Of a DNA stretch of 38,561 bases, positions 18,119 through 38,561 are shown piece after piece (within the stretch, counting starts at the first letter, position 1; every line of letters begins with the position of its first letter). The translations under genes were made by a program, and so were the position numbers. Source of the stretch: Desulfuromonas sp. (GTDB lineage Bacteria > Desulfobacterota > Desulfuromonadia > Desulfuromonadales > Geopsychrobacteraceae); contig PKUC01000072.1 in the NCBI GenBank assembly GCA_002868865.1, positions 1-38,561 on the forward strand. The letters are read 5' to 3'. The notes below the pieces were generated by a model. That model was not told the DNA's origin. It made no database searches and saw only the letters and a list, made by a program, of their open reading frames with translations.

Positions 18119-18173
18119 TCTGTGCTATATTGACCCTGTTTGTATCGATCTGAACGTGCAGAGAAGGGTACCG

Positions 18174-18490: not shown

Positions 18491-18520
18491 TTGACTCAAG
18501 GGGTTTTTCGGCGCTATGAT
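18491..18520 (+). promoter_or_regulatory. Sigma70-type promoter of the polysaccharide operon
   Basis: TTGACT (18491-18496) and TATGAT (18515-18520) are separated by 18 bp, each one base from consensus. Transcription from about 18527 would give a leader of ~200 nt before wza, containing the hairpin at 18544-18562 and the terminator-like structure at 18613-18650. Confidence 0.6.
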
Positions 18521-18543
18521 CCCCCGCGATTTGCGATGTAATG

Positions 18544-18562
18544 TTCGATAGTTGATATCGAA
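18544..18562. repeat. Perfect inverted repeat in the wza leader
   Basis: TTCGATA and TATCGAA flank GTTGA, about 17 nt into the predicted transcript. It could be a protein operator or the first hairpin of an RNA leader. Confidence 0.45.
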
Positions 18563-18612
18563 TGTATTGACCTATGCGAAAACGTCTGAGGGGACGCGAT
18601 GTTACGTAATTT

Positions 18613-18650
18613 AACCGCTACGGTGTTGTTTTTGGACCGGGCGGTTTTTT
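18613..18650 (+). terminator. Terminator-like hairpin (possible attenuator) in the wza leader
   Basis: The outer arms AACCGC (18613-18618) and GCGGTT (18641-18646) enclose a second pairing CGGT/ACCG (18621-18624 with 18636-18639). The structure runs directly into a T-run ending at 18650. It lies downstream of the predicted promoter and 77 bp before wza, so it would have to be read through for the polysaccharide genes to be expressed. Confidence 0.55.
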
Positions 18651-18726
18651 GTGTGTAGGCTTTCTCTGGCCGTTCTTTGCCGTACCCGTCTTGTAGACCT
18701 GTTGCTCTGTCGAAGGTTGACCGATT

Positions 18727-22193: not shown

Positions 22194-22916
22194 ATGGAGG
22201 GTCAAGCATTACCGGGACGTCACGATTATCATACCCACCTGCTGCCGGGGATCGACGATGGAGCGGAAAGCTGGGAGAACGCTCTGCAGATGGCGGCCGT
22301 CCTGGCCGATTGCGGTTTTACCCACGCCTGTTGCACCCCGCACCAGATTTACGGCCTCTATGCGCCGGATGTCGGCCAGGTCGAATTCGCCGTCGCTCGC
22401 CTGCAGCAGCAGGTTGACGATGCCGGGATACCGCTCACGGTGATGCCGGGGATGGAATACCTCCTCGATGACAACTTCGCACAGCATCTTGACTGCCTCC
22501 TCCCCCTCGGTGACAGTGATCAGGTGCTGGTGGAACTCCCCAATCACACCTCCCTCGAACCCCTCCTCGAACTGCTCTTTGCGATCGTCCGCCGTGGCTT
22601 TGTACCCCTGATTGCCCACCCCGAACGCTGCCAGCGCCTGTTCGTCGACAGTCGCTCGTTCCATTTTTGGTTTGGCAAGAAAAAAACGGAGTGCGCCCCG
22701 CTAGTCGAGCAGATGGTGCAGATGGGGTGCCGCTTTCAGGCCAATATCGGCAGCTTTTGCGGATTTTACGGACCGCAGGCCCGTCATCAGGCTCGGACTA
22801 TGCTCAACGGCGGGCTGTATTCCTGTTTTGGCAGCGACGCCCATAATCCCGATGATCTCAAGGGATATCTCAGGCTTGGCATGAGTGTGCTGGAACATCA
22901 GGGGGTTGAAGTTTAA
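22194..22916 (+). CDS. CpsB/YwqE-type PHP protein-tyrosine phosphatase
   Basis: A 240-residue metal-dependent phosphatase of the PHP family. The metal-binding motifs are clear: D11-Y-H13-T-H15-LLPGIDDG at the N-terminus, CTPHQIY, PLIAHPERC and FGSDAHN near the C-terminus. GMEYLLDD and the overall size match CpsB/Wzb-equivalents of Gram-positive type, which also occur in deltaproteobacteria. It would dephosphorylate the Tyr-rich tail of the Wzc-type kinase encoded just upstream (14 bp gap), resetting the polymerisation cycle. It is the last gene before the pseudogene region. Confidence 0.92.
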   Translation: MEGQALPGRHDYHTHLLPGIDDGAESWENALQMAAVLADCGFTHACCTPHQIYGLYAPDVGQVEFAVARLQQQVDDAGIPLTVMPGMEYLLDDNFAQHLDCLLPLGDSDQVLVELPNHTSLEPLLELLFAIVRRGFVPLIAHPERCQRLFVDSRSFHFWFGKKKTECAPLVEQMVQMGCRFQANIGSFCGFYGPQARHQARTMLNGGLYSCFGSDAHNPDDLKGYLRLGMSVLEHQGVEV

Positions 22917-22962
22917 CGTCTCATCGCTTACCGCGAATTAACTTCGGCGGGTCGCGGACCAA

Positions 22963-23127
22963 ACGATCAAGCTGGTCGGAACCGATGCGGATACGATTGT
23001 CGCCGCAGCAACCCGGTTGCTGCGGGATAATACCGCCTATCAATCCATGAGTCGCTCCCATAACCCCTATGGGGATGGTCGCGCTGCCGTGAGGATTGTG
23101 CAGACGTTGGCTGTGAATACGGATTGA
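22963..23127 (+). pseudogene. 3' fragment of a second wecB (UDP-GlcNAc 2-epimerase)
   Basis: Read in frame from 22963 to TGA 23125-23127 this gives TIKLVGTDADTIVAAATRLL, then RDNTAYQSMSRSHNPYGDGR and AAVRIVQTLAVNTD. It aligns without gaps to the C-terminus of intact WecB (TVKLVGTD..., [13 protein letters not shown]); I count 29 identities in 45 positions. The 5' ~85% of the gene is missing and a stop lies in frame at 22939-22941, so it cannot be expressed as a functional protein. The DNA differs at many codon positions from the intact gene, so this is an old or foreign copy rather than a recent duplicate. Confidence 0.88.
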
Positions 23128-23260
23128 CCCGTGCAGGTCCAATCCAAGATAGATAATCTCAATATTTTTTATGGTAATAAATACCAATAAGTGTTTTTTA
23201 CCGCTGGCGGTTTCGGGCTGAGTTGTATAAGGTCTCGGTGGTCTTGATGAGACACACCGT
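23128..23260. other. Non-coding spacer between the wecB and wecC fossils
   Basis: AT-rich in its first half (AATATTTTTTATGGTAATAA around 23161). A small ACCGC/GCGGT hairpin at about 23199-23210 follows a T-run. I see no gene; it is probably further decayed remnant sequence. Confidence 0.4.
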
Positions 23261-23407
23261 ACCGAGTTTCCGCTCTGTTCGTTGTCTCTGTTTTTGAGGA
23301 ATGCGGATAATTTGGTGGTGCTGGTGGATCATGATGAGTTTAAGGGTTTTGATGGCCAATTGCTGAAAGAGAAGATTGTGATTGATACCCGGGGGATTTG
23401 GCGGTAG
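23261..23407 (+). pseudogene. 3' fragment of a second wecC (UDP-ManNAc dehydrogenase)
   Basis: The frame ending at TAG 23405-23407 reads TEFPLCSLSLFLRNADNLVV, then LVDHDEFKGFDGQLLKEK and [10 protein letters not shown]. It aligns without gaps to the C-terminus of intact WecC (SEFPLYEL..., [19 protein letters not shown]); I count 30 identities in 46. Everything upstream of about residue 370 is missing and the frame closes at 23228-23230. A REP-like palindrome follows the stop, as it does after the intact wecC. Confidence 0.88.
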
Positions 23408-23416
23408 ACGGGCTGT

Positions 23417-23445
23417 GGGGACTGGCTTCGCAGGTGCTTGTCCCC
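23417..23445. repeat. REP-like palindrome, copy A (after the wecC fossil)
   Basis: GGGGAC at 23417-23422 and GTCCCC at 23440-23445 are complementary ends of a 29-nt element, with an inner GC/GC pair. Its 24-nt core (23421-23444) matches copy B after intact wecC at 22 of 24 positions. It resembles extragenic palindromes I associate with Geobacter relatives. Confidence 0.65.
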
Positions 23446-23480
23446 CTCAGTGGTTCCCTTATGTGTTTTAAGGTTGAGAA

Positions 23481-24722
23481 ATGGTAAACCATATAGAAAA
23501 TGAACCATTTGAAATCCGTAGTTTTGTTGCCGACAATGAGTCGCAACTGATGACGGCTTGGGAGGAGGCGTATCCTGCACTTTTTCACTTTAAGTTTCCA
23601 GATCGTTGGCGCTGGAACATGTTTAATAATCCCTTTGTTCCGGCAGATGAACGCCCCCTTTGCTGGGTTGCTGTCGCAAAAAATGGGGAGATAGCTGCTT
23701 GGTCCACCGCCATGGCCGTCCCGGTTATTGCAGCAGGCCAACATTTAATAGGTGCTCATTCCTGTGATACATACACTCTAGAACGATACCGCCGGTACGG
23801 ACTGGGGAAAAAACTGCAGCAACTGAACCAGGATGCTCATGGGATTTTTATTGCTATAGATCCATCACCTCCCAATCGACGAAATAAATACAAAGTTGGC
23901 GGGCAGCCAGGGAAGCCGCTTGACACATGGTTGCGTATTGGCACGACTCTTGACAAAAATGTGCTCTACGAATCCTTTCTCAAGGTTGTCGAAAAGTACC
24001 TTGGCCGCTTTGGCGAAGCTCTGTTTTTTAAATGTCGCGATTTAGGACCGGCGTGGTTGTTAAACGCAGCCTGTTCTCTCTCGTTACGTTTACGGCAGCG
24101 CCGGGACAAAAAGGATATGGCTAATGGCCCCGGCGATCTGAAATTTGAAGAGATTGCCCATTTCGGGGAAGAAACAGACCTTCTCTGGTGTCGTTTAGTT
24201 GACAATTACTCCTTCGCTGTCGAAAGAAACTCAGCCTATCTAAATTGGAAATATGTTCGTCAGCCAAACTTCGATTACCATAAGGTGCTCGCATTGCGAA
24301 ATGGCGAACCCGTCGGTTTGCTTGTCTATCGACTGTCGGTTAGCGCAGAGCAGCGGGTGGGGATCATTTCCGAATGTTTTTCGATTGGTGATAATCCCGC
24401 AATTCATGCTTCTCTCATAGCATTGGCGATGGCTGAATTTGATCGCAACGGCATTGATCTAATCAAGTGTGGTGCAAGCACAGAGAACCAGCGTGAGACA
24501 CTGAAGAGGCTCGGTTTTGGTTTGGTTGATATCGATGTTCCCGTCTTTCATATCTCACCGCAGGCGTCTGGTTTAAATGTGGATGAGATTATGGCCAGGG
24601 ATTGGCTGCTCAGTCTTGGCGATTCAGATCTTGATCAGATTCGTCCTGTACAGCAGCCAAGCTTTGTTGAGATTGTTCGTGTGCTTAAAGGCAAGATTCC
24701 TGGATCGGAGTATCTCCCCTGA
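23481..24722 (+). CDS. GNAT-family acyltransferase
   Basis: A 413-residue cytosolic protein. The N-terminal half shows a GNAT-like fold: WVAVAKNGEIAAWSTAMAVP (beta strand with acyl-CoA region), GAHSCDTYTLERYRRYGLGKKL (the R-x-x-G-x-G/A-type acetyl-CoA loop, here RRYGLGKKL). A second GNAT-like half follows with ERNSAYLNWKYVRQPNFDYH, VGLLVYRLS and a late ENQRETLKRLGF. Such tandem proteins occur in exopolysaccharide loci and probably N-acylate an amino sugar, but the substrate is unknown. The stop overlaps the next ATG by one base, tying it to the deacetylase. It is the first gene of the lower-GC cassette. Confidence 0.78.
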   Translation: MVNHIENEPFEIRSFVADNESQLMTAWEEAYPALFHFKFPDRWRWNMFNNPFVPADERPLCWVAVAKNGEIAAWSTAMAVPVIAAGQHLIGAHSCDTYTLERYRRYGLGKKLQQLNQDAHGIFIAIDPSPPNRRNKYKVGGQPGKPLDTWLRIGTTLDKNVLYESFLKVVEKYLGRFGEALFFKCRDLGPAWLLNAACSLSLRLRQRRDKKDMANGPGDLKFEEIAHFGEETDLLWCRLVDNYSFAVERNSAYLNWKYVRQPNFDYHKVLALRNGEPVGLLVYRLSVSAEQRVGIISECFSIGDNPAIHASLIALAMAEFDRNGIDLIKCGASTENQRETLKRLGFGLVDIDVPVFHISPQASGLNVDEIMARDWLLSLGDSDLDQIRPVQQPSFVEIVRVLKGKIPGSEYLP

Positions 24723-25534
24723 TGACTGATTTGACGTACAGGATTAAGCGCCGAATTCTCAGCACGTTAACAAAGAGAAATTTCCTTGGTCCCGGTCCTG
24801 AGGGAAAGGACATGATAAACCTCGTTCTTTATTTTGATTATGAACGAGAGTTTGGTAATCCTGCAGCAAAGGCAAGTGCAGAAACCGGTTTTCGTTTTAT
24901 CGTGGAGACGCTTGACCGGTTTAACATCAAGGCGACATGGAACTGCGTTGGGCTGATCGCGGAAAAATATCCCGATACGCTACAAATGTTGGTTGATAGG
25001 GGGCATGAGCTTTCAAGCCACACCTATCACCATGTCGATGTGACAAATATTACCCGCGATGTGATCGTCCAGGAACTGCGCCTGAGCAGAAAACGCTTTG
25101 CTGACGAATTTGGTGTAGAGGTAGTTGGTTTTCACCCGCCGCAAGATCGGTGGTCAATCCCCCTATTGCAGGCGATGAAGTTGACAGAATATCAGTACTT
25201 GATTGCTCGCGACAATAACCCGCAGCATTGGCATGCCCATCTGTTGAAATTACCCTTTGTGGATCAGAGATTATGTATTCCTTCTATCGCCGATGATTGG
25301 GATTATTTTGATAACCACATGGTTCCTGAGATAATGCTTCGTTATTGGGAAGAGCGGATTTCTATGCTGGGACCGGGGAGTGTGGCGGCTATTGGTTTTC
25401 ATCCCTGGGTTCTTGGGGCGTCTCCAGAGAGACTTTCTTTCTTCGAGTCGCTGGTGACTTCTCTGGTTGCCGATGACAGTATCTCTTTGACGTCTGGGAG
25501 AGAACTCTTGACTCACTACCAGGATCAACTTTAG
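24722..25534 (+). CDS. Polysaccharide deacetylase (NodB-fold)
   Basis: A 270-residue protein with the NodB motifs: motif 1 as YFD39-YE, motif 2 as SSH100-TYHH104, and later GFHPPQDRWS (motif 3-like) and AAIGFHPWVLG (the conserved late His). No signal peptide is visible, so it is predicted to act in the cytoplasm, on a nucleotide- or lipid-linked sugar, rather than on the finished polymer. Its translational overlap with the GNAT gene suggests a deacetylate-then-reacylate pair that would swap the acyl group of an amino sugar; this is inference from context. Confidence 0.85.
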   Translation: MTDLTYRIKRRILSTLTKRNFLGPGPEGKDMINLVLYFDYEREFGNPAAKASAETGFRFIVETLDRFNIKATWNCVGLIAEKYPDTLQMLVDRGHELSSHTYHHVDVTNITRDVIVQELRLSRKRFADEFGVEVVGFHPPQDRWSIPLLQAMKLTEYQYLIARDNNPQHWHAHLLKLPFVDQRLCIPSIADDWDYFDNHMVPEIMLRYWEERISMLGPGSVAAIGFHPWVLGASPERLSFFESLVTSLVADDSISLTSGRELLTHYQDQL

Positions 25535-25554
25535 TGCTCTTGTCTAAATGTTAA

Positions 25555-26958
25555 ATGAAACAAAAGGCCTGTGAGTTCTCCACAGAAAGTTGCAATAATA
25601 GCAAAAAAGTATTTATGAAATCCTCGATGAAGAAAGACATTGCTTATACCATGAGTGGGCAGGTAGGCCGTCTGGTCTTTGCCACACTTGCCAGTGCGCT
25701 ATTGGCTCGCGGGTTGGGGACTGATCAGCGTGGTCTGTATGCCATGGCCATTGCCGGTCCAAACCTGATGGCAATGTTTATCCCCTTGGGGCAACTGCAG
25801 ATTAACCAGACCTTTGCCGGGTTACACAAGGAGTATAGGCCGCAGTTGTTCGTTCAGTCTTTCCTGATTGCTTTGTTTGTTAGTGCGTTGTGCGCTGTCA
25901 GTTATATAGCTCTTTTCAGGTCGCAGGCTACCATCTTGGGAAACTATGACCAACTCAGTTTTGAACTTGTCTATGGCGGCGCGGTTCTTCTCCCCTTTTT
26001 GTCCTTTAATCTTCTGATGCGGGAGTTAACCCGAGGTGCCGAATTCATTCAGTCAAATGTAGTTATAACAACTTTCGGGTTTGCTCTTCAGGCTGTACTG
26101 ACAGGAATCTTTGTTTTCGGTTTCGGAGTTGGGGTACTTGAGGCCATGGGTATTATTCTAGTGGTCAACTTCGTTACCATTATCGGTTACTGTTGGGTCT
26201 TTAGATTTTACATTAGTGAAATAATTTGCCGAAAGGCGAAGATGTCACGAGAGTTTTTTAAAGAATGCAATAGGGTTGGAGTGCAATATTTACTTTGCTC
26301 AGTTGTCATCAATCTTGATTCTACTCTTCCCATCTTTGTGCTTGGTTACCTTGGAGCATCAAATGCCGACATCGGCATTTTTGCAGTTGGCTTTGCACTG
26401 GCTGTTCAAATGGAAATGGTCCCGATGTCGATATCGCAGGTCTACCTGCCGCGGCTAAGCAACGGCAGAGTCGGGTATGCTGCCGAGACCCCCCGAATAT
26501 TCAGATTGACTATGATCTCTTCCTGCTTTTCCATGCTGGGCATGTTGATTGTCGGATTTCCCCTCATTTGGCTTCTCTTTGGCAGCGAGTACACGTCGAG
26601 TTACTATCTGGTTTCGGTGATCGTACCGGGTATCGTCTTGGCCAGCGGAGGCAGGATTCTGACCTCCTACCTTCGTGTTGCCAAGAAACCGAGATACGAG
26701 ATTACATCGGGTTTGCTCAAGGTTGCCACTTTTTGCATCTTTTCCATCGTGCTGTATCCGGCGATGGGCATTTTGGGTGTTGCCATGGCAGTAACGCTTG
26801 CTCGTCTTCCGTGGATATTACAGTTGGTTTACGCCTATCGCAAAGAGTCCGGGGGCACTTTTAGGGAGCTTAGTGTCTGCAAGGAGGATTTTGTTCTGCT
26901 TTATAGAAAATGCATGGAAACACTTCCCAGACGAACCTTCATTGGAGGTACTAAGTGA
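25555..26958 (+). CDS. Wzx-like polysaccharide flippase
   Basis: A 467-residue multi-membrane protein with about 12 hydrophobic segments. The start KKDIAYTMSGQVGRLVFATLASALLARGLG with TDQRGLYAMAIAGPNL is typical of the MATE/oligosaccharide-flippase superfamily. It would move the undecaprenyl-linked repeat unit across the inner membrane. Start uncertain: ATG 25555 gives the longest frame, but ATG 25615 or 25627 fits the homologous N-terminus better, and none has a clear Shine-Dalgarno. Its end overlaps the next GTG by 4 bases. Confidence 0.82.
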   Translation: MKQKACEFSTESCNNSKKVFMKSSMKKDIAYTMSGQVGRLVFATLASALLARGLGTDQRGLYAMAIAGPNLMAMFIPLGQLQINQTFAGLHKEYRPQLFVQSFLIALFVSALCAVSYIALFRSQATILGNYDQLSFELVYGGAVLLPFLSFNLLMRELTRGAEFIQSNVVITTFGFALQAVLTGIFVFGFGVGVLEAMGIILVVNFVTIIGYCWVFRFYISEIICRKAKMSREFFKECNRVGVQYLLCSVVINLDSTLPIFVLGYLGASNADIGIFAVGFALAVQMEMVPMSISQVYLPRLSNGRVGYAAETPRIFRLTMISSCFSMLGMLIVGFPLIWLLFGSEYTSSYYLVSVIVPGIVLASGGRILTSYLRVAKKPRYEITSGLLKVATFCIFSIVLYPAMGILGVAMAVTLARLPWILQLVYAYRKESGGTFRELSVCKEDFVLLYRKCMETLPRRTFIGGTK

Positions 26959-27668
26959 GTCTTCTCGTTCGAACTATAAAGAAAATCGCTGGTTTTGTTG
27001 AGCGGAAATGGGCAAGAACTAACGAAAAGAGATATATAGATTACCTGCGTAGGAAGAAGGTGAAGATAGGTGACAACTGTATGATTCCTTTTCCCTCCAC
27101 TGTTGATATTGACCTGTGTCGCCCTTGCTTGGTGGAGATTGGTGACTATGTACGGATCAATAAAAATTTCTTTCTGAGGGTGCATGACGGCGGTTTCTTT
27201 GTATTGCGCCACAAGTTCAAAGAGTTGATTTCTGCTTCGGGGAAAGTAACCATCGGTAATAATGTTTATTTTGGCTTCGATTGTAAGGTTTTTAAGGGGG
27301 TAACAGTCGGAGACAACTGCATCATTGGTGCAAATTCAGTTATTTCCAAGAGCATTCCTGCCAACTCTGTTGCGGTTGGTTCACCCGCCCGGGTCGTTTG
27401 CACCGTGGATGAGTACTATCAAAAACGCAAAGCCGTGTACGTCCAAGAGGCATTCGCCTATTGCCATGCCATCGTGGAACGGTATGGCCGAAGACCGGTT
27501 CTCGCAGACTTCAAATCTGAATTTCCATTATTTCTAAAAGCCCATGAAGAACCGACCGATCTACCTGTAAGAGCCCAAATGGCAGAGGTTTATGACCACT
27601 ACAAGGAACACCATGTGCCACTTTTCGAAAGTTTTGATGATTTCCTTAAAGCTGCAGGTATCGATTAA
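26955..27668 (+). CDS. Hexapeptide-repeat (left-handed beta-helix) O-acetyltransferase
   Basis: A 237-residue protein from GTG 26955 with GGAGG at 26944-26948. Hexapeptide repeats are clear: KIGDNCMI, VEIGDYVRI, VTIGNNVYFGFDCKVF, VTVGDNCIIGANSVISKSIPANSVAVGSPARVV, the canonical end of CatB/WbbJ/NodL-type acetyltransferases. The C-terminal ~85 residues after the beta-helix are an unusual helical, charged extension (YYQKRKAVYVQEAFAYCH). It probably acetylates a sugar hydroxyl of the repeat unit. It is coupled to the flippase gene by a 4-base overlap. Confidence 0.87.
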   Translation: MSLLVRTIKKIAGFVERKWARTNEKRYIDYLRRKKVKIGDNCMIPFPSTVDIDLCRPCLVEIGDYVRINKNFFLRVHDGGFFVLRHKFKELISASGKVTIGNNVYFGFDCKVFKGVTVGDNCIIGANSVISKSIPANSVAVGSPARVVCTVDEYYQKRKAVYVQEAFAYCHAIVERYGRRPVLADFKSEFPLFLKAHEEPTDLPVRAQMAEVYDHYKEHHVPLFESFDDFLKAAGID

Positions 27669-27696
27669 CTAAGTTCTTAGTTAAAAAGGTTTTCAT

Positions 27697-28746
27697 ATGG
27701 AATCCGCCACACTTATAACGGTTGCAGTGATCTGCAAAAACGAAGTCAGTAACATGGCGCGCTGTTTGGAGTCGATTCTGGCTTCGACTTCGCACCTGGA
27801 GGTTGAAGTCCTTGTGGTTGATTCTTATTCGACTGATGGAACAGTTGAGTTAGCACAAAAGTATCCGGTTACAATCATACAACTTGGTTACGACTGGCCG
27901 CACTCTCCAGCTGCTGGGCGCTATACAGCTGTGTTGCATGCCAAAGGCCGCTATCTCCTGTTAATCGATGGAGACATGGAGTTGATTCCGGGTTTTATTG
28001 AAAAGGCCTTGGCCCAAATGGAAGTCAATCCCGAAGTGGTTGCAGTGCGAGGGCGGTTGCATAATTTTCACAAAATTAATGGCGACACTATCCATGTTAA
28101 CAGTAAATTTGCCAAAACCACCTCCGCCAAGGAGAGGTGTCAAGAGGATACCCCGGAGCTTATCACCTGTGCTTCCGGTTCTGCGCTCTTTCGTTTAATA
28201 GCTATCCGTGAGGCAGGCAATTTTCAGCCATTCCTCAAGGCCGAGGAAGAATACGAAATTGCCCAGCGCCTGCGAACCCGTGGTGGCAAACTTCTCTATA
28301 TTCCAGTCGATGCTGTTAATCATTATGGATATCTTCCCGATCCTCTGCGAGAGGTGGGAAGGCGGCTGCGCCGAGGGTTGGTTGGCGGAGTTGGGCAGAT
28401 GATAAGGCTCTCTTTTCAGGAGGGTTACGGTTGGGAAAATTTCCATCGCTTTCGCCTTCAGCTTGTCCTTGGCTGCTTTTCCCTGTTGTTCATACCGGCG
28501 GTGTTGTTTGCTTGGGTTTGGCCCCCTGTTCCCTTGATCTGGTTGAGTCTCAGCCTCATATTTCTGATAACCTACTGGGTTAAGAAACGAGACTTGCGGT
28601 CGGCTTTCGCCGCATGCCTACTTAACGTTCTTATCGGCATCGACATCATTAGGGGCGCCCTTATTTCAGTGCCACCAAGGGAAGCATATCCTACGACCGT
28701 CACAATGATTAATGGTACTTTTGTTAATCAGGAGGGTGTGAATTGA
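27697..28746 (+). CDS. Family 2 glycosyltransferase with C-terminal membrane segments
   Basis: A 349-residue GT-A enzyme. The N-terminus ITVAVICKNEVSNMARCLESI and EVLVVDSYSTDGTVELA are GT2 hallmarks; the metal-binding motif is LLIDG-D (D91-x-D93), and the EEEYEIAQRLR segment supplies a typical acceptor-side acidic patch. After ~residue 250 there are two to three hydrophobic stretches (LVLGCFSLLFIPAVLFAWVW and next), anchoring it to the inner membrane. It adds one sugar of the lipid-linked unit; donor unknown. AAAGG precedes ATG 27697. Its stop overlaps the polymerase start. Confidence 0.88.
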   Translation: MESATLITVAVICKNEVSNMARCLESILASTSHLEVEVLVVDSYSTDGTVELAQKYPVTIIQLGYDWPHSPAAGRYTAVLHAKGRYLLLIDGDMELIPGFIEKALAQMEVNPEVVAVRGRLHNFHKINGDTIHVNSKFAKTTSAKERCQEDTPELITCASGSALFRLIAIREAGNFQPFLKAEEEYEIAQRLRTRGGKLLYIPVDAVNHYGYLPDPLREVGRRLRRGLVGGVGQMIRLSFQEGYGWENFHRFRLQLVLGCFSLLFIPAVLFAWVWPPVPLIWLSLSLIFLITYWVKKRDLRSAFAACLLNVLIGIDIIRGALISVPPREAYPTTVTMINGTFVNQEGVN

Positions 28747-30113
28747 GTACGCCCCGTGCTGGCACCGTGGATATATCCCTTCTTCTGCTTATATTTCTAC
28801 TGCCGTCGAGTTTTCAGCTCACCCCGCCAGCGATCCCGATTGGCAATTTTTACATCACCCTGGTAGAGATCTGTCTGTTCATTCTTCTCGGGCACTGGCT
28901 ACTCGACCTTCTGGTCAGTGGGACAGGCTATGTTTCTCCTCTCGACAAAGTTTTTTCGCTCTTTCTTGCCTACCTATGCCTGAGTCTGATTTTTGGAAGT
29001 CAGCATTTTGGTGTGAACAAAGCCTTGGGAGATTTCCGCCAGTATCTGCCCCTTTTTCTTTATTTTTGGGTGATGCGTTTTTTTGGTTTCGCGAAAGACC
29101 TTTCTAGGGTGCGGCAAGGTATTTTAAATGTCACGATAGTTGTGGCAATTTATGTGGTTTTCATTTTTTTATTTTTTAGAGGTGCCATCGCCACAAGGGA
29201 GAGTTTGGCTGAGCGTGTTTTTTTCGATAACACCATGCTTCCTCTCATGATATACGGTGGTTATGTTCTAGGTATTGCCCTTATGAAAAATGAAAAGTCG
29301 CATAAAGGATTTGCATCAATCCTATTGGCTTCGAATTTTATAATGCTTATTGTTATGCAGGTACGTACTTATTGGATTGCATTCGCCATTGTTATTGCAA
29401 TGGCTACCTTTAATCAAAGAAGGGCATTTTTCAAGACAGCAATTATGGTCAAAAACGCCTATTGGGTTTCATTAATATTAGCTGTGACTTTTTTATTCTT
29501 AACCTTTGTCCCTGCTGAAACAATCGGTTTGCAAGAGGCCATGACCTCGGTCAAGGAACGAATCGAATCGCTCATCAGTTTTGAACAGACTTTCCTTGGT
29601 CAGGAGAATACTTGGGTTACCGAGACGGAGACGGTCGGCACCCGTCTGGCGACTGCCAAAGTTGTCTGGAACGAGTATGTCATGAACTCTCCGCTCTTTG
29701 GTACCGGGCTTGGTGGGGAAATTCCGATAATGAGCCGCCTAGGAGGCGTGGTTCTGATGAAGTATTCGATCGATAATGGTTACTTGACGATTCTGGCCAA
29801 ATTCGGGGTAATCGGGTTTGCCCTCTACGGATTGATTATCTGGCGCCTTTGTCAGATGCTGTACCGCATCATCGTTTCGCCATTCAGCCATGATGATGAG
29901 AAGCTTTTGGCGTATAGTTTTCTCGCAGGCGTAGCCGCTATGTTGGTGGCGTCTTTTTTCTCTTCGAATTTCATCCGGCAACAACCTGCCTTGGTCGCCT
30001 TCCTCTTTATGTTGGCCGAAACTTCAGTCTTGCAGCGAACGGTTGAAACAAGACGTCGGGAATCCCAGATTCAGGGGGTGCCCCTGCCTAGAATCACAAT
30101 CGGGAGGATGTGA
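28743..30113 (+). CDS. Wzy-like O-antigen/polysaccharide polymerase
   Basis: A 456-residue integral membrane protein with about 11 hydrophobic segments and a large loop (~240-330) before NSPLFGTGLGG...SIDNGYLTILAKFGVIGFALYG. That last pattern (SPLFGTG-LG, then D-N-x-Y-L-x-x-L-x-x-x-G) is the Wzy_C / O-antigen ligase family signature. The start is TTG 28743, overlapping the GT2 stop, with GGAGG at 28731-28735. It probably polymerises flipped repeat units in the periplasm. Low GC and T-rich codons are obvious here, unlike the flanking genes. Confidence 0.85.
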   Translation: MSTPRAGTVDISLLLLIFLLPSSFQLTPPAIPIGNFYITLVEICLFILLGHWLLDLLVSGTGYVSPLDKVFSLFLAYLCLSLIFGSQHFGVNKALGDFRQYLPLFLYFWVMRFFGFAKDLSRVRQGILNVTIVVAIYVVFIFLFFRGAIATRESLAERVFFDNTMLPLMIYGGYVLGIALMKNEKSHKGFASILLASNFIMLIVMQVRTYWIAFAIVIAMATFNQRRAFFKTAIMVKNAYWVSLILAVTFLFLTFVPAETIGLQEAMTSVKERIESLISFEQTFLGQENTWVTETETVGTRLATAKVVWNEYVMNSPLFGTGLGGEIPIMSRLGGVVLMKYSIDNGYLTILAKFGVIGFALYGLIIWRLCQMLYRIIVSPFSHDDEKLLAYSFLAGVAAMLVASFFSSNFIRQQPALVAFLFMLAETSVLQRTVETRRRESQIQGVPLPRITIGRM

Positions 30114-31372
30114 TGAAAATCCTGTTGGTTAATTATCACTATTTTATCCACGGTGGCCCGGATCGCTATTTTTTCAACGTGAAGGATTTGCTGGAAAAGG
30201 CTGGACATGCCGTTATTCCATTCTCATTCGACTATGATGAAACGTTTGAAACCCCATATCGACGGTATTTTCCAGAACCGATCAGTGGCAGAGGTACCTT
30301 TCTTCTTGAAAATCTTAAACTGACGAAACGCCAAAAGCTCACATATTTAAGAAAGATGTTTAAAAACGAAGAGGTTGAAAAGAAATTCTTTGATCTTTTA
30401 GATCGAGAGCGACCGGATATCGTTTATTCGATCTATCTTTCTTCGTCGATGCTTCCTAAAATTCTTCATATTGCCAAAAAAAGGTTCAAAATTCCGGTTG
30501 TCTATCGTCTTTCCGACTTCCACATGATTTGCCCCTCTTATCTTTTTTTTCGCAACGGCGAGGTCTGCCAGGAGTGCCTGAATACCCCATGGGCAGCAGT
30601 CAGGTATCGGTGTGTGCAGAGTTCTATGTTGGCGTCCCTGTTGCGGGTGATTCAGATCGCCATGATTCGCAAGCGGCGCTGGTATGATAGTGTGGATCGT
30701 TTTGTATGCCCGAGCCGTTTGATGCAGACCTGTCTGCTCAATGCAGGTTTTTTAAAAGAGAAAGTTGCCTGGGTGCCAACTTTTACAGGTGATTTGTTGA
30801 GTGGTAGCGGAGAGACAGGTAAGAGTATCCTTTATTTCGGCAAACTGACACGGGAAAAGGGCGTTGAGGTGCTCTTGAGGGCCTACAATGCCTTGGAGTC
30901 GCCGAGATACCCGCTCAAGCTCATCGGCCATTGCTCCGATGACTATCGGACTTACTTGTATACGTTGCTTGATGCTCGCCATCGCGACATGGTGTCGATT
31001 AGCGGGCCCTTGCACGGCGAAGCTATGTGGCAGGAATTGAGAAGCTGCGCCTTTGTTGTACAACCGGCTATTTGGCTTGAAAATATGCCGAACACGCTGA
31101 TTGAGGCACTCTCCGCTGGAAAGCCTGTCGTCGCTTCGGATGTCGGCAGCCTCACTGAACTGGTGAAGGATGAAGAGAACGGTTATCTGGTATCTCCCGG
31201 GGACGCAAAAAAGCTTAGTCAGGTTTTGAATAAAATGTCGTGTGATTCTGACCTGGTTGCCATGGGAGAACAATCAAGACGTCGTTATGAGAAGTATCAC
31301 ACTGCGGATGTACACTTTCAACAATTACAATCCATTTTCACGGATTTGGTAGCTGGCAGCTCAAATTCTTAA
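30113..31372 (+). CDS. Family 4 glycosyltransferase
   Basis: A 419-residue GT-B protein from ATG 30113, with GGGAGG at 30102-30107 (GTG 30110 is one codon upstream and less likely). The N-terminal domain begins MKILLVNYHYFIHGGPDRYF. It contains HMICPSYLFFRNGEVCQEC, a Cys-rich segment common in WcaL/WbaZ-like GT4 enzymes. The C-terminal donor domain has ILYFGKLTREKGVEVLLRAY, then ENMPNTLIEALSAGKPVVAS (the E-x7-E region) and GSLTELVKDEENGYLV. It adds a sugar to the lipid-linked unit. It overlaps the polymerase stop by one base. The next gene is 49 bp away. Confidence 0.88.
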   Translation: MKILLVNYHYFIHGGPDRYFFNVKDLLEKAGHAVIPFSFDYDETFETPYRRYFPEPISGRGTFLLENLKLTKRQKLTYLRKMFKNEEVEKKFFDLLDRERPDIVYSIYLSSSMLPKILHIAKKRFKIPVVYRLSDFHMICPSYLFFRNGEVCQECLNTPWAAVRYRCVQSSMLASLLRVIQIAMIRKRRWYDSVDRFVCPSRLMQTCLLNAGFLKEKVAWVPTFTGDLLSGSGETGKSILYFGKLTREKGVEVLLRAYNALESPRYPLKLIGHCSDDYRTYLYTLLDARHRDMVSISGPLHGEAMWQELRSCAFVVQPAIWLENMPNTLIEALSAGKPVVASDVGSLTELVKDEENGYLVSPGDAKKLSQVLNKMSCDSDLVAMGEQSRRRYEKYHTADVHFQQLQSIFTDLVAGSSNS

Positions 31373-31421
31373 ATCCATGAACACATTAAATATATAGCGT
31401 ATAACTTAAAGGCTTCTAAAT

Positions 31422-32471
31422 ATGGATGCATCGATAATCGTAACCTACCGCTGTCCAATGCGCTGCAAGATGTGCGACATATGGAACGGCCCCACCAAGC
31501 CTGATGATGAGTTCAAGCCGGAGTTGCTTGAAAAGCTCCCCAAGCTTGCAGCTGTCAACGTCACCGGCGGCGAACCTTTTATTCGTGACGACTTGGACGA
31601 AATCGTCCGCATCCTTTTCACCAAGACGGAAAGGGTGGTTATTTCCACCAGCGGTTGGTTCGAGGATCGTATCTTCAAGCTGGCGGAGAAGTTTCCCAAC
31701 CTTGGTTTCCGCGTCAGTATCGAAGGGCTTTCCCAGAAGAACGACGATCTACGTGGACAGGAAGGCGGTTTTGACCGCGGCCTGCGGGTTCTCTTGGGCC
31801 TGAGGCGCATGGGGGTTAAGGACATCGGGTTCGGGATTACGGTCAGCAACAACAACTCCCCTGACATGCTTCATCTTTATGAACTGGCCAAAGGTCTGAA
31901 TCTCCAGTTTGCGACGGCGGCCTTTCATAACTCCTTTTACTTCCAGAAAGACGACAACGTTATTACCAACATTGACGAAGTCTCCGCCAACTTTGAGGAA
32001 TTGGTTAACCGTTTGATGAAAGAGAACCACCCCAAATCATGGTTTCGGGCGTTGTTCAATGTGGGGTTGATCAACTATATTCGTGGCGGTAAACGGATGT
32101 TGCCCTGTGAAGCGGGGAGCGAGAACGTCTTTATCGATCCGCGTGGAGAGGTGCTCCCTTGTAACGGGATGGAAGAAAAATATTGGTTCCAGAGTATGGG
32201 CAATCTGCATGATGTCGACGATTTCATGACGATCTGGAACAGTCCTTTGGCTGAAGATGTTCGTGCCAAGGTGGCCAAGTGTCCAAAAAACTGTTGGATG
32301 ATCGGTTCGGCGTCGCCCGTCATGCGGAAATATTTAAAAAAGGTTGGTCCTTGGGTTGTCAAAAACAAACTTAAGTCCCTGACTGGTGGGAAGATCTGCG
32401 GTTACTGCTGTCCGCAATACAATGTCGGACAAGATCCGGAACAGGGGAATCTAGGCCGTTCTGTTGGGTAG
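31422..32471 (+). CDS. Radical SAM/SPASM-domain protein of the polysaccharide locus
   Basis: A 349-residue radical SAM enzyme. The canonical iron-sulfur motif is right at the N-terminus, C11-PMR-C15-KM-C18, followed by NVTGGEPFIRDDL (the GGE SAM-binding motif). The C-terminal region has a SPASM-like set of Cys: LPCEAGSENVFIDPRGEVLPCNGM, KCPKNCW and GKICGYCC. It could modify a sugar or a peptide/lipid partner by radical chemistry; I know no assigned reaction. It is flanked by GT4 genes and followed by a strong terminator. Base composition is less AT-rich than its left neighbours. Confidence 0.87.
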   Translation: MDASIIVTYRCPMRCKMCDIWNGPTKPDDEFKPELLEKLPKLAAVNVTGGEPFIRDDLDEIVRILFTKTERVVISTSGWFEDRIFKLAEKFPNLGFRVSIEGLSQKNDDLRGQEGGFDRGLRVLLGLRRMGVKDIGFGITVSNNNSPDMLHLYELAKGLNLQFATAAFHNSFYFQKDDNVITNIDEVSANFEELVNRLMKENHPKSWFRALFNVGLINYIRGGKRMLPCEAGSENVFIDPRGEVLPCNGMEEKYWFQSMGNLHDVDDFMTIWNSPLAEDVRAKVAKCPKNCWMIGSASPVMRKYLKKVGPWVVKNKLKSLTGGKICGYCCPQYNVGQDPEQGNLGRSVG

Positions 32472-32500
32472 TTGCCGTGTGGATATAATGAATTTGAGAG

Positions 32501-32527
32501 AAGCGGAGATGACTCCGCTTTCTTTTT
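32501..32527 (+). terminator. Strong rho-independent terminator inside the polysaccharide locus
   Basis: AAGCGGAG (32501-32508) and CTCCGCTT (32513-32520) form a perfect 8-bp stem with loop ATGA, followed by TCTTTTT. It lies between the radical SAM gene and the next GT4 gene, and its T-run abuts that gene's Shine-Dalgarno (GGGGAG, 32528-32533). Confidence 0.85.
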
Positions 32528-32542
32528 GGGGAGATTTTTTTG

Positions 32543-33658
32543 ATGAATTCTAGAAAGTTGAAAATTGCTTTTCTGGTGGTAAAAAATATTGCCCGTGGCG
32601 GCGGCATTGAAAAATACACCCTAGAATTGGGGAGTCGCTTGGTTCGGCGTGGACATGAGGTGACTGTCTATTCTATGGGGCATTACGGTGAGGTTGCTTT
32701 TGAATGTGAGGGAATGCGTATTGTTCCGCTGCCTTGTATTCAGCATTCCGCCCTTGAAAAATTGACGGTTTCAGCTGCTGCAGCTTTTAAACTCGTTTTT
32801 AGTGGCGAGAAGTATGATGTTGTGCATCTTCATAGCGTTGCCGCCGGTGCTTTTGCTCCTTTACTACGTTTACGAGGATACCGATGTGCTTTGCAGATGC
32901 ATGGTGTTGAATGGCACAGGACGCGTTGGAGTGCTTTTGGCAGAAATATGCTGAAAACTCTCGAGTGGTTGTCTTTGAAGGGAGCCCATGCTTTTACTGC
33001 CGTGTCAAACACCCAGTGTAATTTTTATCACGAGCGAAACGGTGTCGAGATGCGTTACATTTCGACCGGCGCCGACATCAAAGACCACCAACCGGTTCAG
33101 GAAATTTTCAAGCTCGGCTTAGAGGCTGAAAAGTACGTCCTGTTTGCGTCCCGGCTTGTTTATGAAAAGGGTGCTCATTATCTGATCCCGGCGTTTCGGG
33201 CGCTGGATACTGATTTCAAGCTAGTTATCGCCGGAGATGCTAAGGGGGAAGAACAATACAAAAAGCAACTCGTCGATCTGGCCGAAGGTGATCCGCGGAT
33301 TATTTTCCCCGGCTTTGTTGAAGGGCGCGCATTGGTCGAGCTGTTTAGCAATGCGGCTGTTTATGTTCAACCCTCTGAAATCGAGGGACTCTCTATCGCA
33401 TTGCTGGAAGCGATGAGTTACGGGAATTGCTGCCTTGTGAGTGATATCCCCGAAAATAGAGAAGCGATAGGGGAGGCGGGTTTTACATTTAAAAACAAGG
33501 ACACCAATGACTTAAACGCGCAGTTAAGTCGATTGTTGAGCGATCCTGCTCTTAGAAAATCGGTCGCGGTCCAAGCGTCTAAACGCGTGGAAACCGAATA
33601 TAATTGGGATAAAATTGCGGACGAATTTGAATGCTTGTATCGTGAGGTGGCAAAGTAG
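32543..33658 (+). CDS. Family 4 glycosyltransferase (second)
   Basis: A 371-residue GT-B enzyme from ATG 32543 (TTG 32540 rejected; GGGGAG at 32528-32533). The N-terminus KIAFLVVKNIARGGGIEKYTLEL has the glycine-rich loop of GT4 enzymes, and YDVVHLHSVAAGAFAPLLRL follows. The donor domain shows YVLFASRLVYEKGAHYLIPAFR, FKLVIAGDAKGEEQY, IIFPGFVEGRALVELF, and then VQPSEIEGLSIALLEAMSYG with the E-x7-E motif, plus SDIPENREAIGEAGF. It lies directly behind the internal terminator, so its expression may depend on read-through or a local promoter. Confidence 0.9.
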   Translation: MNSRKLKIAFLVVKNIARGGGIEKYTLELGSRLVRRGHEVTVYSMGHYGEVAFECEGMRIVPLPCIQHSALEKLTVSAAAAFKLVFSGEKYDVVHLHSVAAGAFAPLLRLRGYRCALQMHGVEWHRTRWSAFGRNMLKTLEWLSLKGAHAFTAVSNTQCNFYHERNGVEMRYISTGADIKDHQPVQEIFKLGLEAEKYVLFASRLVYEKGAHYLIPAFRALDTDFKLVIAGDAKGEEQYKKQLVDLAEGDPRIIFPGFVEGRALVELFSNAAVYVQPSEIEGLSIALLEAMSYGNCCLVSDIPENREAIGEAGFTFKNKDTNDLNAQLSRLLSDPALRKSVAVQASKRVETEYNWDKIADEFECLYREVAK

Positions 33659-33836
33659 CCGAGAAAAACTAGCAGGATAAACACTTTTGGCCAGTTCTGG
33701 ATCGTTCATGGTTTTAACCATGATGCGCAAAATACTTTACAAACCCAGGTTTTTCCGTAGAGAATAAGACGTCAGGTAGGGGGGGGATGTTCGATAATAG
33801 CGTTGCTATTCCCTCCAATCTATCTTGAGGTTTTCG
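33659..33836. other. Intergenic region with a perfect 8-bp palindrome
   Basis: No gene is visible. At 33706-33723 TCATGGTT and AACCATGA form a perfect inverted repeat around TT, which may be an operator or hairpin. A G-run (GGTAGGGGGGGG, about 33776-33787) follows. Confidence 0.4.
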
Positions 33837-34988
33837 TTGAAAATTGATTCGGAAATCAATTCTCTCATCGCTTGGGTGCAGCGACACAACTATGTAGGCT
33901 ATGACCCTTATGATGCCCTTAATAGCCCCATTATCCGCCGGCTGACATGCGGGCGGAAATATGGGCGGATCGCATGGATTCAATTTATGCGTCGCTGCCC
34001 GATCAACCTACGGCCCTTGTTTTTGGTGCCCAAAGGGTATAATCCAAAAGGGCTGGGGCTTTTTCTCGGCGGCTATGCCAGGTTGCATAAATGCGACCCC
34101 CACTCTGATTATTTAAGGCAGATACAAACTCTACTCAACCTGCTTGAACAAACCCGATGCGCCGGTTATTCAGGCAACTGCTGGGGGTACAATTTCGACT
34201 GGCAGTCTCGCGCTTTTTTTGTTCCTCAATATACCCCAACCATCGTCAACTCGTCCTTTATTGGTCATGCCCTGCTCGACACCTATGATTTGCTCGGTGA
34301 GCAGCGGGCACTTGATATGGCCGTGTCGATCAAGGATTTTTTGCTCAACGACCTTCATCGAACGATCGCAGGTGAGACCTTCGGCTTCAGCTACACACCC
34401 AACGACCGTACTGCTGTTCACAACGCCAACCTTATGGGGGCCTCTTTGCTGATCCGTTTGTACGGCCTGACGGGTGATTCGGTTTTACGCGATACCGCCC
34501 AGGCCAGTCTGGCCTACACCATGGATCGTCAACATGTCGATGGATCATGGTTTTATGCCGAAACGGCGATGCAGAGCTGGATCGATTCGTTTCATACCGG
34601 CTTTAACCTTGAGGCGATCCGCTGGTTTTTAAGACTGGGGGAAGGGCAGGAGTATCGCGCGGCTTACGAGAAGGGTGTGCGTTATTACGCCGAAAATTTT
34701 TTTCTGGAAGATGGTACCCCCAAATACTATCACGACAGAACCTATCCGATCGATATCCATGCACCCGCTGAGGCTGTTTTCTTCTTTGCGGGAGAGGGGA
34801 AAGAATACCGCGATCTGACGCTGCGGGTTCTGAATTGGATGTTGAACAACATGCGTGGTGAACAGGGGTTCTTTTATTTTAGAAGGGGGCCACGTATGAC
34901 CAACAAAGTTCCTTATATGCGCTGGAACCAGTCCTGGGCCTTTCGTGCCCTGAGTGAGTATTTTTTTCACGACCACAAGGGCGAGTAA
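33837..34988 (+). CDS. Alpha/alpha-toroid-like polysaccharide biosynthesis protein, function unknown (VpsJ-like)
   Basis: About 383 residues from TTG 33837, with GAGG at 33827-33830; TTG 33825 is an alternative with no Shine-Dalgarno. There is no signal peptide. Repeated helical hairpins rich in Trp/Tyr (NCWGYNFDWQSRAFFVPQYTPT, YTPNDRTAVHNANLMGASLL, HVDGSWFYAETAMQSWIDSFHTGFNLEAIRW, YPIDIHAPAEAVFFFA, PYMRWNQSWAFRALSEYF) suggest an (alpha/alpha)6 barrel as in unsaturated glycuronyl hydrolases or epimerase C-domains. I recall proteins of this type in exopolysaccharide loci, some named VpsJ, but do not know the activity. It precedes the wecG-type gene by 3 bp. Confidence 0.72.
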   Translation: MKIDSEINSLIAWVQRHNYVGYDPYDALNSPIIRRLTCGRKYGRIAWIQFMRRCPINLRPLFLVPKGYNPKGLGLFLGGYARLHKCDPHSDYLRQIQTLLNLLEQTRCAGYSGNCWGYNFDWQSRAFFVPQYTPTIVNSSFIGHALLDTYDLLGEQRALDMAVSIKDFLLNDLHRTIAGETFGFSYTPNDRTAVHNANLMGASLLIRLYGLTGDSVLRDTAQASLAYTMDRQHVDGSWFYAETAMQSWIDSFHTGFNLEAIRWFLRLGEGQEYRAAYEKGVRYYAENFFLEDGTPKYYHDRTYPIDIHAPAEAVFFFAGEGKEYRDLTLRVLNWMLNNMRGEQGFFYFRRGPRMTNKVPYMRWNQSWAFRALSEYFFHDHKGE

Positions 34989-34991: not shown

Positions 34992-35768
34992 ATGTCCACT
35001 TCGCTTCATGAATTACCGGAACCAATGCCTTTGATGGGGGTTAAGTTGACTCCCTTTGCCGATTATGCTCACGCAATAAAAACTGTGTCCTTTCTGTTGG
35101 CGTCGGAGGATAAAGTCTTCAGTGTTGCTGTGAATCCGGAAAAGATCTATCGGGCCAGCCATGATCGGTCGCTTCGCGAGCTACTCAATCGAGCAGAGAT
35201 CTGTCTTTGTGATGGCGTCGGGGCGGCGCTTGCTGTCCGTGTCCTGCATCGTAAAAAGATCGACCGTATTACCGGTGTTGCCCTGTTTTTTGAGCTGATC
35301 AGGGCTGCGGCTGATAATCAATGGAGGGTTTATCTGCTGGGTGCCAGCCCGGATGTCAATGATGCCGCTGCGAAACAGCTCCAAAATGATCATCCCAATC
35401 TGAATATCGTCGGTCGGCAGGATGGCTATTTTCAGGAAGCTGCCGCTGTTGTTGATGCGATTAATGCTTCCGATGCGCAACTGGTTTTTGTCGCCATGGG
35501 ATCACCCAAACAGGAAATTTGGATTGCCGAGCACCGCGATCAGATCAATGCGCAGTTCTGCATGGGGGTTGGCGGGACGTTCGATGTGGTTTGTGGCAAG
35601 GTGTCATGGGCCCCGGAATTTTTTCGCAGGACGGGGACCGAGTGGCTCTATCGATTACTCATGGAACCGAAGCGCTGGAGGCGTCAGTTGACGTTGCCGA
35701 AATTTGTCTGGTTGGTGATGAAGTACAAAATGGGCCTGGAGAAGGACAGGGGGGCTCCTCTAGCTTGA
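34992..35768 (+). CDS. wecG: WecG/TagA/CpsF-family glycosyltransferase (GT26)
   Basis: A 258-residue enzyme with the complete family pattern: VFSVAVNPEKIYRASHD, then ICLCDGVGAALAVRVL (the catalytic Asp region), RITGVALFFELIRAAA, RVYLLGASPDVNDAAAKQL, LVFVAMGSPKQEIWIAEHRD and CMGVGGTFDVVCGKVSWAPEFFRRTGTEWLYRLLMEPKRWRRQ. These enzymes transfer ManNAc or ManNAcA from UDP to an undecaprenyl-linked GlcNAc acceptor. The adjacent wecC and wecB genes make that donor, so ManNAcA is the likely sugar. The C-terminus is amphipathic and membrane-associated in homologs. Higher GC resumes here. Confidence 0.9.
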   Translation: MSTSLHELPEPMPLMGVKLTPFADYAHAIKTVSFLLASEDKVFSVAVNPEKIYRASHDRSLRELLNRAEICLCDGVGAALAVRVLHRKKIDRITGVALFFELIRAAADNQWRVYLLGASPDVNDAAAKQLQNDHPNLNIVGRQDGYFQEAAAVVDAINASDAQLVFVAMGSPKQEIWIAEHRDQINAQFCMGVGGTFDVVCGKVSWAPEFFRRTGTEWLYRLLMEPKRWRRQLTLPKFVWLVMKYKMGLEKDRGAPLA

Positions 35769-35856: not shown

Positions 35857-37101
35857 ATGAAGCAACCACAAAAAATCGTCGTCGTCGGTCTGGGATATAT
35901 CGGTCTGCCAACGGCCTCTATGCTGGCGACTAAGGGCTATCAGGTACTCGGTGTCGATGTGAATCCTGTGACGGTGGAGACCATCAATCAGGGGCAAATC
36001 CACATTGTTGAGCCCGATCTCGATATTCTCGTCAGGTCGGCTGTGAACAGTGGGAAATTGAAAGCGTCCCTAACACCGGAGCCGGCGGATGCGTTCATCC
36101 TGGCCGTACCGACCCCCTTCACACAGAATGACGATGCCAGCAACCCCCCCGATATTTCACATGTTGAAGCGGCCACTGAAGCGATCTGTCCCGTGTTGAA
36201 CGCGGGCAATCTGGTGATCCTGGAATCGACCTCGCCGGTCGGAACGACGGAACGTATTAAAGAGATCATTGCCGAAAAACGCAGCGATCTGTTTGCAGCC
36301 TCACCTCTGACCCCTCACACCTCACCGGTCTACGTGGCCCATTGCCCTGAGCGGGTGTTGCCGGGACATGTTTTGCGGGAGCTGGTCGATAATGATCGCA
36401 TTGTCGGTGGCGTCGACCGAATTTCGGCGGAGAAGGTCCGGGGGTTGTATAAAACCTTCTGCAGCGGCGAAATTGTGCTGACGGACAGCCGCACCGCTGA
36501 GATGACTAAGCTGGTGGAGAATTCGTTCCGTGATGTCAATATCGCTTTTGCCAACGAACTGTCGCTGGTTTGCGATAAGTTGGATATCAATGTTTGGGAG
36601 CTGATCGACCTGGCCAACAGGCACCCGCGGGTCGATATTCTCAATCCGGGCCCGGGCGTCGGTGGTCACTGTATCGCCGTCGATCCCTGGTTTGTGGTGG
36701 CGTCCGCGCCGGAGCTGACCCCGTTGATCCGCACCGCCCGTGAAGTGAATGACTGTAAGCCGGAGTGGGTGGTCCGCAAGGTTGCCGTCATGGCTGAGCG
36801 CTTCAAAAACCCGGTGATCGGTTGCATGGGACTGGCGTTTAAGGCCGATATCGATGATTTGCGTGAATCCCCGGCCCTCGCTATCACCCGTAAATTGATC
36901 GATAGCAATATCGGTGAGGTGATGGCCTGTGAGCCGAACGTCAATGGTGAGTTCAGTGAATTCCCCCTGTATGAGCTCGCTGAGGTTCTGACGCGAGCGG
37001 ACATTCTGGTGGTTCTGGTCGATCACGCTGAGTTTAAAGAGATCGATTATGAGCTGTTGGAGGAAAAAGTGCTGATCGATACCCGAGGAATCTGGCGCTA
37101 G
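35857..37101 (+). CDS. wecC: UDP-N-acetyl-D-mannosamine dehydrogenase
   Basis: A 414-residue NAD-dependent nucleotide-sugar dehydrogenase that oxidises UDP-ManNAc to UDP-ManNAcA. The Rossmann motif is [24 protein letters not shown] is typical of WecC. Further motifs are [63 protein letters not shown] with the catalytic Cys, and [16 protein letters not shown]. The end is [10 protein letters not shown]. The frame is open further upstream, but that part only translates a REP-like repeat; ATG 35857 has AAGGA at 35844-35848. The variable loop before AHCPERV is encoded by CCTCAC-type repeats. A partial second copy lies at 23261. Confidence 0.95.
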
Positions 37102-37103: not shown

Positions 37104-37128
37104 ACTGGCTCCGCAGGTGCCTGTCCCT
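37104..37128. repeat. REP-like palindrome, copy B (after wecC)
   Basis: Begins ACTGGCTCCGCAGG two bases after the wecC stop and ends TGTCCC. It matches copy A at 22 of 24 core positions and has the same orientation relative to wecC. Confidence 0.6.
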
Positions 37129-37155
37129 TTTGGCTCTACTGCTGATTTTAGAACC

Positions 37156-38374: not shown

Positions 38375-38561
38375 GGGGGGCGGGGACGTTCGTCCTTGAG
38401 TGACTGCACGTCTACCGTGCCACCGAAAGGCGGGCCCGCTTACCCTGTTCGCTAATGGACGTGAACAGCCGCGGGGTTTGATTTTTGTGCTGCTTGCGGC
38501 TTACAGCTCGGTCACCTCAGATTTTATGGATTGTTCGATTAATTTCATTGATTTCAAAGTC
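38375..38561. other. Non-coding end of the window with small inverted repeat
   Basis: No gene is recognisable. A G-rich start (GGGGGGGCGGGGACGTTCGT) resembles the ends of extragenic palindromes. CTGTTC (38445-38450) and GAACAG (38463-38468) are complementary and are followed by a T-rich stretch, a possible weak terminator for the wec genes. Confidence 0.35.

Follow-up and report, generated by a model that had tools for sequence, protein, structure and literature searches.

We found that the gap between the cpsB stop codon (22916) and the start of a GNAT-like gene (23481) in a Desulfuromonas polysaccharide locus, 564 bases without a complete gene, contains two frames that stop at the homologous stop codons of wecB and wecC, and these are almost certainly remnants of a wecB-wecC pair. 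On balance, we favor the reading that a complete wecB-wecC pair, redundant beside the intact wecC-wecB pair 14 kb away, was mostly deleted and that the 564-base gap is the deletion scar. The window, the whole stretch of DNA that we analyzed, is all of contig C84 (38,561 bases) of a genome of 2.66 Mb in 109 contigs, and its features are listed in Table 1.

Table 1. Features of the cpsB–wecB part of the window, in order of position.
Feature	Position	Strand	Description
cpsB (CpsB/CapC-type phosphatase), left neighbour	22194..22916	+	Pfam CpsB_CapC E 7.8e-32, profile 3-206 of 234
wecB' remnant	22951..23127	+	last 58 residues of UDP-GlcNAc 2-epimerase frame, to homologous stop
A+T-rich spacer	23128..23245	+	expected place of the missing part of wecC; 23128-23230 has 38% G+C
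wecC' remnant	23246..23407	+	last ~48-53 residues of UDP-ManNAc dehydrogenase frame, to homologous stop
REP-like palindromic repeat, copy 1	23417..23446	+	24-base core 23421-23444, starts 13 bases past wecC' stop
Low-G+C polysaccharide cassette	23481..34988	+	GNAT-like, deacetylase, Wzx, acyltransferase-like, glycosyltransferases, Wzy, radical SAM, unassigned protein
wecG-family glycosyltransferase	34992..35768	+	Pfam; TIGR00696 above cut-off
Intact wecC (UDP-ManNAc dehydrogenase)	35857..37101	+	NCBIfam NF008286 equivalog, 594.7 bits, cut-off 459
REP-like palindromic repeat, copy 2	37104..37127	+	starts 2 bases past wecC stop
Intact wecB (UDP-GlcNAc 2-epimerase)	37205..38374	+	NCBIfam TIGR00236 equivalog, 524.8 bits, cut-off 210
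Contig end	38463..38561	+	exact 99-base overlap with end of contig C42 (L177 14800-14898)

The wecB' frame extends from 22942 to 23127, with homology starting at about 22951 (VADQTIKLVGTD...). It is identical to the intact WecB of the window at 29 of 49 residues (E 4e-18, 62.8 bits) and matches positions 294-346 of the 347-position Pfam Epimerase_2 profile above the cut-off (E 9e-12). The wecC' frame extends from 23231 to 23407, with homology starting at about 23246 when compared to the WecC of relative G047 or at about 23261 when compared to the intact gene. It is identical to intact WecC at 31 of 48 residues (E 3e-19, 63.2 bits) and matches the end of the Pfam UDP-binding domain (E 1e-6) with 29.2 bits, slightly below the curated cut-off of 30. 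The alignments and Pfam matches confirm a preliminary description of this DNA, which had reported two frames ending at the WecB and WecC stops, and its identity counts of 29/45 and 30/46 are near those we measured. That description had named two outcomes that would speak against it, matches no better than chance and fragments that recur as dispersed repeats, and we found neither. A chance match is ruled out by 2000 dinucleotide shuffles of 22917-23480, where the top score was 24.6 bits as compared to the real 62.8 and 63.2, and a dispersed repeat is ruled out because a search of the 2.66-Mb draft genome with each fragment (E up to 1) gave two places only, its own and that of the intact counterpart.

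Both fragments are shortened and clearly homologous to full-length genes, as gene remnants are. wecB' lacks approximately 331 of the 389 WecB residues and wecC' 366 of the 414 WecC residues; the full proteins cannot be made, and both remnants are predicted to make no enzyme. A gapped alignment that would continue wecB' into 22917-22950 was too weak to claim. When we searched the ten other gaps of at least 60 bases with the 16 window proteins (wza to wecB) and the two fragments as queries, there were no further convincing remnants and one 25-bit match in 18119-18726. The data do not support a cpsB cut short at the junction: its tail past the SDAH motif is 23 residues, inside the range of 15-48 residues seen in 17 aligned relatives (6 shorter and 11 longer).

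G+C content changes along the locus. It is 59-60% in wza, wzc and cpsB (59% in cpsB), 44-51% in the cassette, 52% in wecG and 55% in intact wecC and wecB; within the gap it is 58% in wecB', 38% in the spacer and 48% in wecC', and the spacer has no recognizable homology among the loci compared. The cassette names come from Pfam for the GNAT, deacetylase, Wzx, Wzy and radical SAM genes, and the others are putative and read from the sequence. The last cassette gene (33825-34988) encodes a 387-residue protein with a weak Glyco_hydro_88 match that is below the cut-off. At the right end, the identical 99-base ends suggest that C84 and C42 adjoin. C42 continues with a gene for a WecA-like transferase (205.8 bits with TIGR02380, under the cut-off of 326) and then one for GalE, and the order at the 3' end of the locus is probably wecG-wecC-wecB-(wecA-like)-galE. 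If these enzymes act as they do in enterobacterial common antigen synthesis, this 3' module would be a full set for placing ManNAcA on the undecaprenyl carrier.

To place the remnants relative to functional genes, we compared them with the intact pair and with the homologues in G047 and G090. Over 49 residues, wecB' is identical to the intact protein at 29, to G047 at 30 and to G090 at 31, and wecC' is identical to the intact protein at 31 of 48, to G047 at 34 of 47 and to G090 at 31 of 47 residues. At the DNA level, wecB' is slightly nearest to intact wecB (66.7%; G047 61.9%, G090 63.9%) and wecC' is nearest to G090 (68.8%; intact 64.6%, G047 64.5%), and blastn agrees in both cases. A recent duplicate should be markedly more similar to the intact copy than to the homologues of other families, which the remnants are not; a recent copy of the intact wecC-wecB is ruled out because the remnants are about equally far from the intact pair and from G047 and G090. 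The preliminary statement that the fragments lack their 5' ends and have diverged beyond a recent duplication thus holds, with coding DNA identity to the intact genes of 65-67%.

When compared to the intact genes, wecB' differs at 16 first, 9 second and 24 third codon positions and wecC' at 16, 10 and 25 (p 0.03 and 0.035 for equal thirds), a third-position lean that is the same as in functional pairs. The intact genes differ from G047 at 10, 12 and 31 positions in wecB and at 9, 7 and 28 in wecC, so there is more first-position change in the remnants, and first-position change as high as theirs is also found in some other functional pairs. In wecB', 4 of the 23 columns that are conserved in at least 90% of 88 WecBs are changed, 3 of the 4 at the broken edge, and 8 of the 88 functional rows depart from 4 or more of the same columns. 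In wecC', all 7 columns of such conservation are kept and decay is invisible except for the truncation. The third-position lean, together with the similar distance to homologues of other families, indicates that the remnants and the intact pair diverged mostly while functional, and the pattern would fit a long functional history with later truncation.

The preliminary description had proposed trees of the fragments with full WecB and WecC, and these, which rest on 48-54 residues, gave a mixed answer. In a tree built from the two window rows and 16 of 53 others, wecC' groups with intact WecC and the G047 WecC (95/97) and is nearest to G047 (92/82, not significant); the grouping also received 99 in a quick tree with all rows. 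We placed wecB' in two trees, one with all rows and one with 21 of 87 other rows; it is not part of the clade of intact WecB plus G047 (100/99) and lies loosely near G090, G055, G052 and G010. The AU tests rejected none of the groupings tried, and the fragments are too short to decide among them: for wecB', p was 0.19 with the intact copy, 0.12 with the intact copy and G047, and 0.35 with G090, G055, G052 and G010; for wecC', p was 0.14 with the intact copy alone, 0.23 with G090 and G052, and 0.12 with G090, G052 and G055.

To determine which gene order is usual, we scanned public genomes with intact WecB and collected 88 loci, the best 80 of 574 relatives and eight stretches from relatives, and we called a pair adjacent when a wecC homologue of more than 250 bits was no more than 1 kb away on the same strand. 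Among the 88 loci there were 54 adjacent pairs, and 53 of these were wecB-wecC; the lone wecC-wecB pair was on a Bacteroidales contig. Within the order (G090 added), all six adjacent pairs, from five relatives, were wecB-wecC (G010 twice, G047, G052, G055 and G090). The remnants therefore keep the common order and the intact wecC-wecB pair is the odd one, and it was correct to describe the two orders as opposite. The enterobacterial common antigen wec operon has the order wzzE-wecB-wecC. A gene with Wzz and GNVR domains is immediately 5' of wecB in G090 and at one of the two G010 loci, and in G052 a Poly_export domain gene is found there. For 40 of 54 wecB-wecC pairs we scanned the upstream frame on the same strand (of the others, 3 were at contig ends and 11 had no frame within 700 bases by a simple frame caller), and the Wzz and GNVR domains were each found in 6 of the 40 neighbours. 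The arrangement of a chain-length or export gene followed by wecB-wecC is thus recurrent, though a minority.

We made several further observations in these relatives. In G047, a PDDEXK_3-family protein is encoded between wecB and wecC (L101 11832-12260), and both G010 loci have frames near the wec pairs that resemble it by eye (L104 17168-17593 and L105 7304-7705). WecC of the wecC' type is rare in the order, found in 5 of 135 other genomes (E up to 1e-9). In G001, the one congener compared, we found no relative of either fragment and no cpsB (limits E 1e-6 and 1e-15). A 34-residue frame in G024 was ruled out as a second fossil because it is cut by the contig end.

The preliminary description had also expected wecB-wecC directly after wza-wzc-cpsB in relatives, and this was not borne out in our sample. 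We found 25 cpsB loci (23 of 59 relatives have cpsB), of which at least 4 are on contigs that end within about 1.1 kb of cpsB, and wecB-wecC follows cpsB directly in none of the 25; WecB and WecC orthologues are absent beside cpsB. In 9 of the 25 loci there is a 28-32% wecC-like match downstream, which is probably another nucleotide-sugar dehydrogenase, and one locus has a wecB-like match of 32% at a distance of 5 kb downstream. In at least 2 of the 25 loci, cpsB is upstream of wza (L153 and L160).

A 24-base palindromic repeat, ACTGGCTYCGCAGGTGCYTGTCCC, which the preliminary description does not include, is present just after both wecC stops, and the two copies are identical at 22 of 24 bases. 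In the genome there are two exact copies and one weak copy (3 mismatches, contig C50), and the reversed-pattern control gave 0. In family f1, a form that is one base longer (up to 3 mismatches) has 20 matches in 7 of 43 relatives with 0 in the reversed-pattern control, and so within this family the repeat is REP-like: palindromic, in several genomes and places, and above background. Outside of f1, the longer form gave 7 matches in 6 of 54 genomes as compared to 6 control matches, which is background, and at up to 3 mismatches it gave none in the window's own genome. In G005 we observed an array of seven copies in both orientations (L172 5129-6154). Hairpin z values are –2.0 for copy 1 and –1.2 for copy 2, and a scan of 22850-23600 found no intrinsic terminator at the repeat in the left gap. 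The repeat resembles REP/BIME-type palindromic repeats: it is a short imperfect palindrome, dispersed in the family and with a small array in G005. It differs in that here there are just two exact copies and one weak copy in the genome, in a form that lacks one base of the family pattern. Between wecC and wecB (37155-37173) there is a second short palindrome (CGGCGGGTCGCGTCCCGCC). Its first 12 bases have a single other exact occurrence on the + strand of the window, at 22945-22956, which is the 5' margin of the wecB' homology.

The repeat is 92% alike between the two places while the wecC ends before it are 65% alike, and the probability of 22 or more of 24 matches at that rate is 0.003. The repeat need not, therefore, share the history of the wecC ends; a later insertion, copying or exchange event could account for the difference, as could constraint on the repeat. 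That two of only three copies are right after the two wecC ends seems hard to put down to chance. The copies are direct and flank a 13.7-kb block that starts with the GNAT-like gene and ends with wecC, and the repeat may mark junctions.

Taken together, these data lead us to prefer the deletion of a resident pair. In this scenario, wecB and wecC would once have been complete and functional, in the usual order and just 3' of the export and chain-length genes, and this pair would have supplied UDP-ManNAcA. The intact wecC-wecB pair, anciently diverged, is now at the 3' end of the locus beside wecG and, across the presumed contig join, the wecA-like gene. With a second intact pair in the locus, the first would have been redundant and would have shed most of its length by deletions, and its two 3' ends would have stayed; the cassette and the intact pair may have arrived together or stepwise. 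The identity and copy number of the remnants, their usual order, a position like that after the Wzz/GNVR and Poly_export genes, their divergence and their third-position bias all argue for this scenario, as do the step from wza-wzc-cpsB (59-60% G+C) and wecB' (58%) to the cassette (44-51%), the departures of wecB' from conserved columns, which are matched or exceeded by 8 of 88 functional rows, and the intact genes, which are equivalogs with WecG and a WecA-like gene beside them. Against it, we count the absence of wecB-wecC right after cpsB in all 25 loci, the 7 of 7 conserved columns and cassette-like 48% G+C of wecC', the DNA of wecB', which is slightly more like intact wecB (66.7%) than like the G047 or G090 genes, and weak trees with no AU rejection. 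The earlier proposal that wecB-wecC once stood directly after the phosphatase gene is partly supported. It is upheld as to a once functional pair in the usual order, with comparable sites in G090, G010 and G052; ancestry at this very locus is not, given the 0 of 25 cpsB loci.

Other histories were considered. The remnants could instead be foreign, junk at the edge of the incoming cassette that is the torn end of a donor wecB-wecC and never worked here. We regard this as possible but rather doubtful: the G+C of wecC' and the spacer is more cassette-like than cpsB-like and none of the 25 loci of relatives has the pair right after cpsB, but the 58% G+C of wecB' is near the 59% of cpsB, and the order and position match the arrangement past chain-length or export genes in G090, G010 and G052. 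Tandem duplication of a wecB-wecC-repeat unit followed by alternate gene loss is unlikely. It would explain the permuted order, as wecC-repeat-wecB is a circular permutation of wecB-wecC-repeat, and the repeat common to both wecC ends, and it is consistent with the clade of wecC', intact WecC and G047 (95/97) and with wecB' DNA being slightly nearest to intact wecB. However, coding DNA identity of 65-67%, as compared to 92% in the repeat, means that any duplication is old; wecC' is nearer to G047 in protein (34/47) and to G090 in DNA (69%) than to the intact copy; and the best tree does not pair wecB' with intact WecB as sisters, although this grouping is not rejected by the AU test (p 0.19).

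We likewise consider it improbable that the repeat is a crossover point at which the 13.7-kb GNAT–wecC block entered (or can leave) by recombination, leaving a stub of the resident wecB-wecC at the left; if true, the repeat would be a docking site for whole sugar cassettes. Least probable by far is a history in which the fragments are not remnants but work as short genes or as regulatory DNA. Their frames are open to the homologous stops and have a third-position bias, but the wecB' frame has no ATG, GTG or TTG upstream of its conserved block, the active-site parts of both enzymes are gone, and the only short frame among the relatives' matches, that of G024, is a contig-end cut.

The remnants document directly, at the sequence level, that a polysaccharide locus of the little-studied Desulfuromonadales was rebuilt while its capacity for UDP-ManNAcA was kept. 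The presence of two WecC lineages in one locus, of a type that is rare in the order, suggests repeated selection for that sugar, and the repeat common to both wecC ends provides a testable idea on how cassettes are joined. In the literature, we found no paper joining gene remnant, capsule and wecB, and among the matches listed there was nothing relevant on repeats with polysaccharide cassettes and nothing on the wecB'/wecC' locus under Desulfuromonas exopolysaccharide.

Remnants in rebuilt polysaccharide clusters are a known phenomenon, and the window adds one such case. Among Salmonella O-antigen clusters, rebuilt clusters carry a wzy remnant in group B1 and H-repeat and wzy remnants in D2/D3 (PMC3715488). 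As in the window, a gene whose role had passed to another persists in shortened form at its former place in the polysaccharide cluster (PMC3715488). In Salmonella, however, a sister serogroup is known that has the ancestral cluster in intact form (B2 for B1; PMC3715488), whereas in the window two adjacent genes were shortened together and we found no sister with an intact pair. The K17 capsule locus of Vibrio parahaemolyticus has two wecB and two wecC copies that are 72.3% and 74.1% identical (PMC7829505) and so resembles the window in having two diverged wecB/wecC sets in one polysaccharide locus. Both K17 copies are counted as multicopy genes and ascribed to duplication (PMC7829505); in contrast, one set in the window consists of 3' ends only. 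In the enterobacterial common antigen wec operon, WecB and WecC make UDP-ManNAcA and WecG transfers it (PMC7439462), and the enzyme set is the same as that of the 3' module of the window with its WecA-like neighbour. The window differs in having the order wecG-wecC-wecB-wecA-like, in unrelated bacteria and with Wza/Wzc/CpsB-type export.
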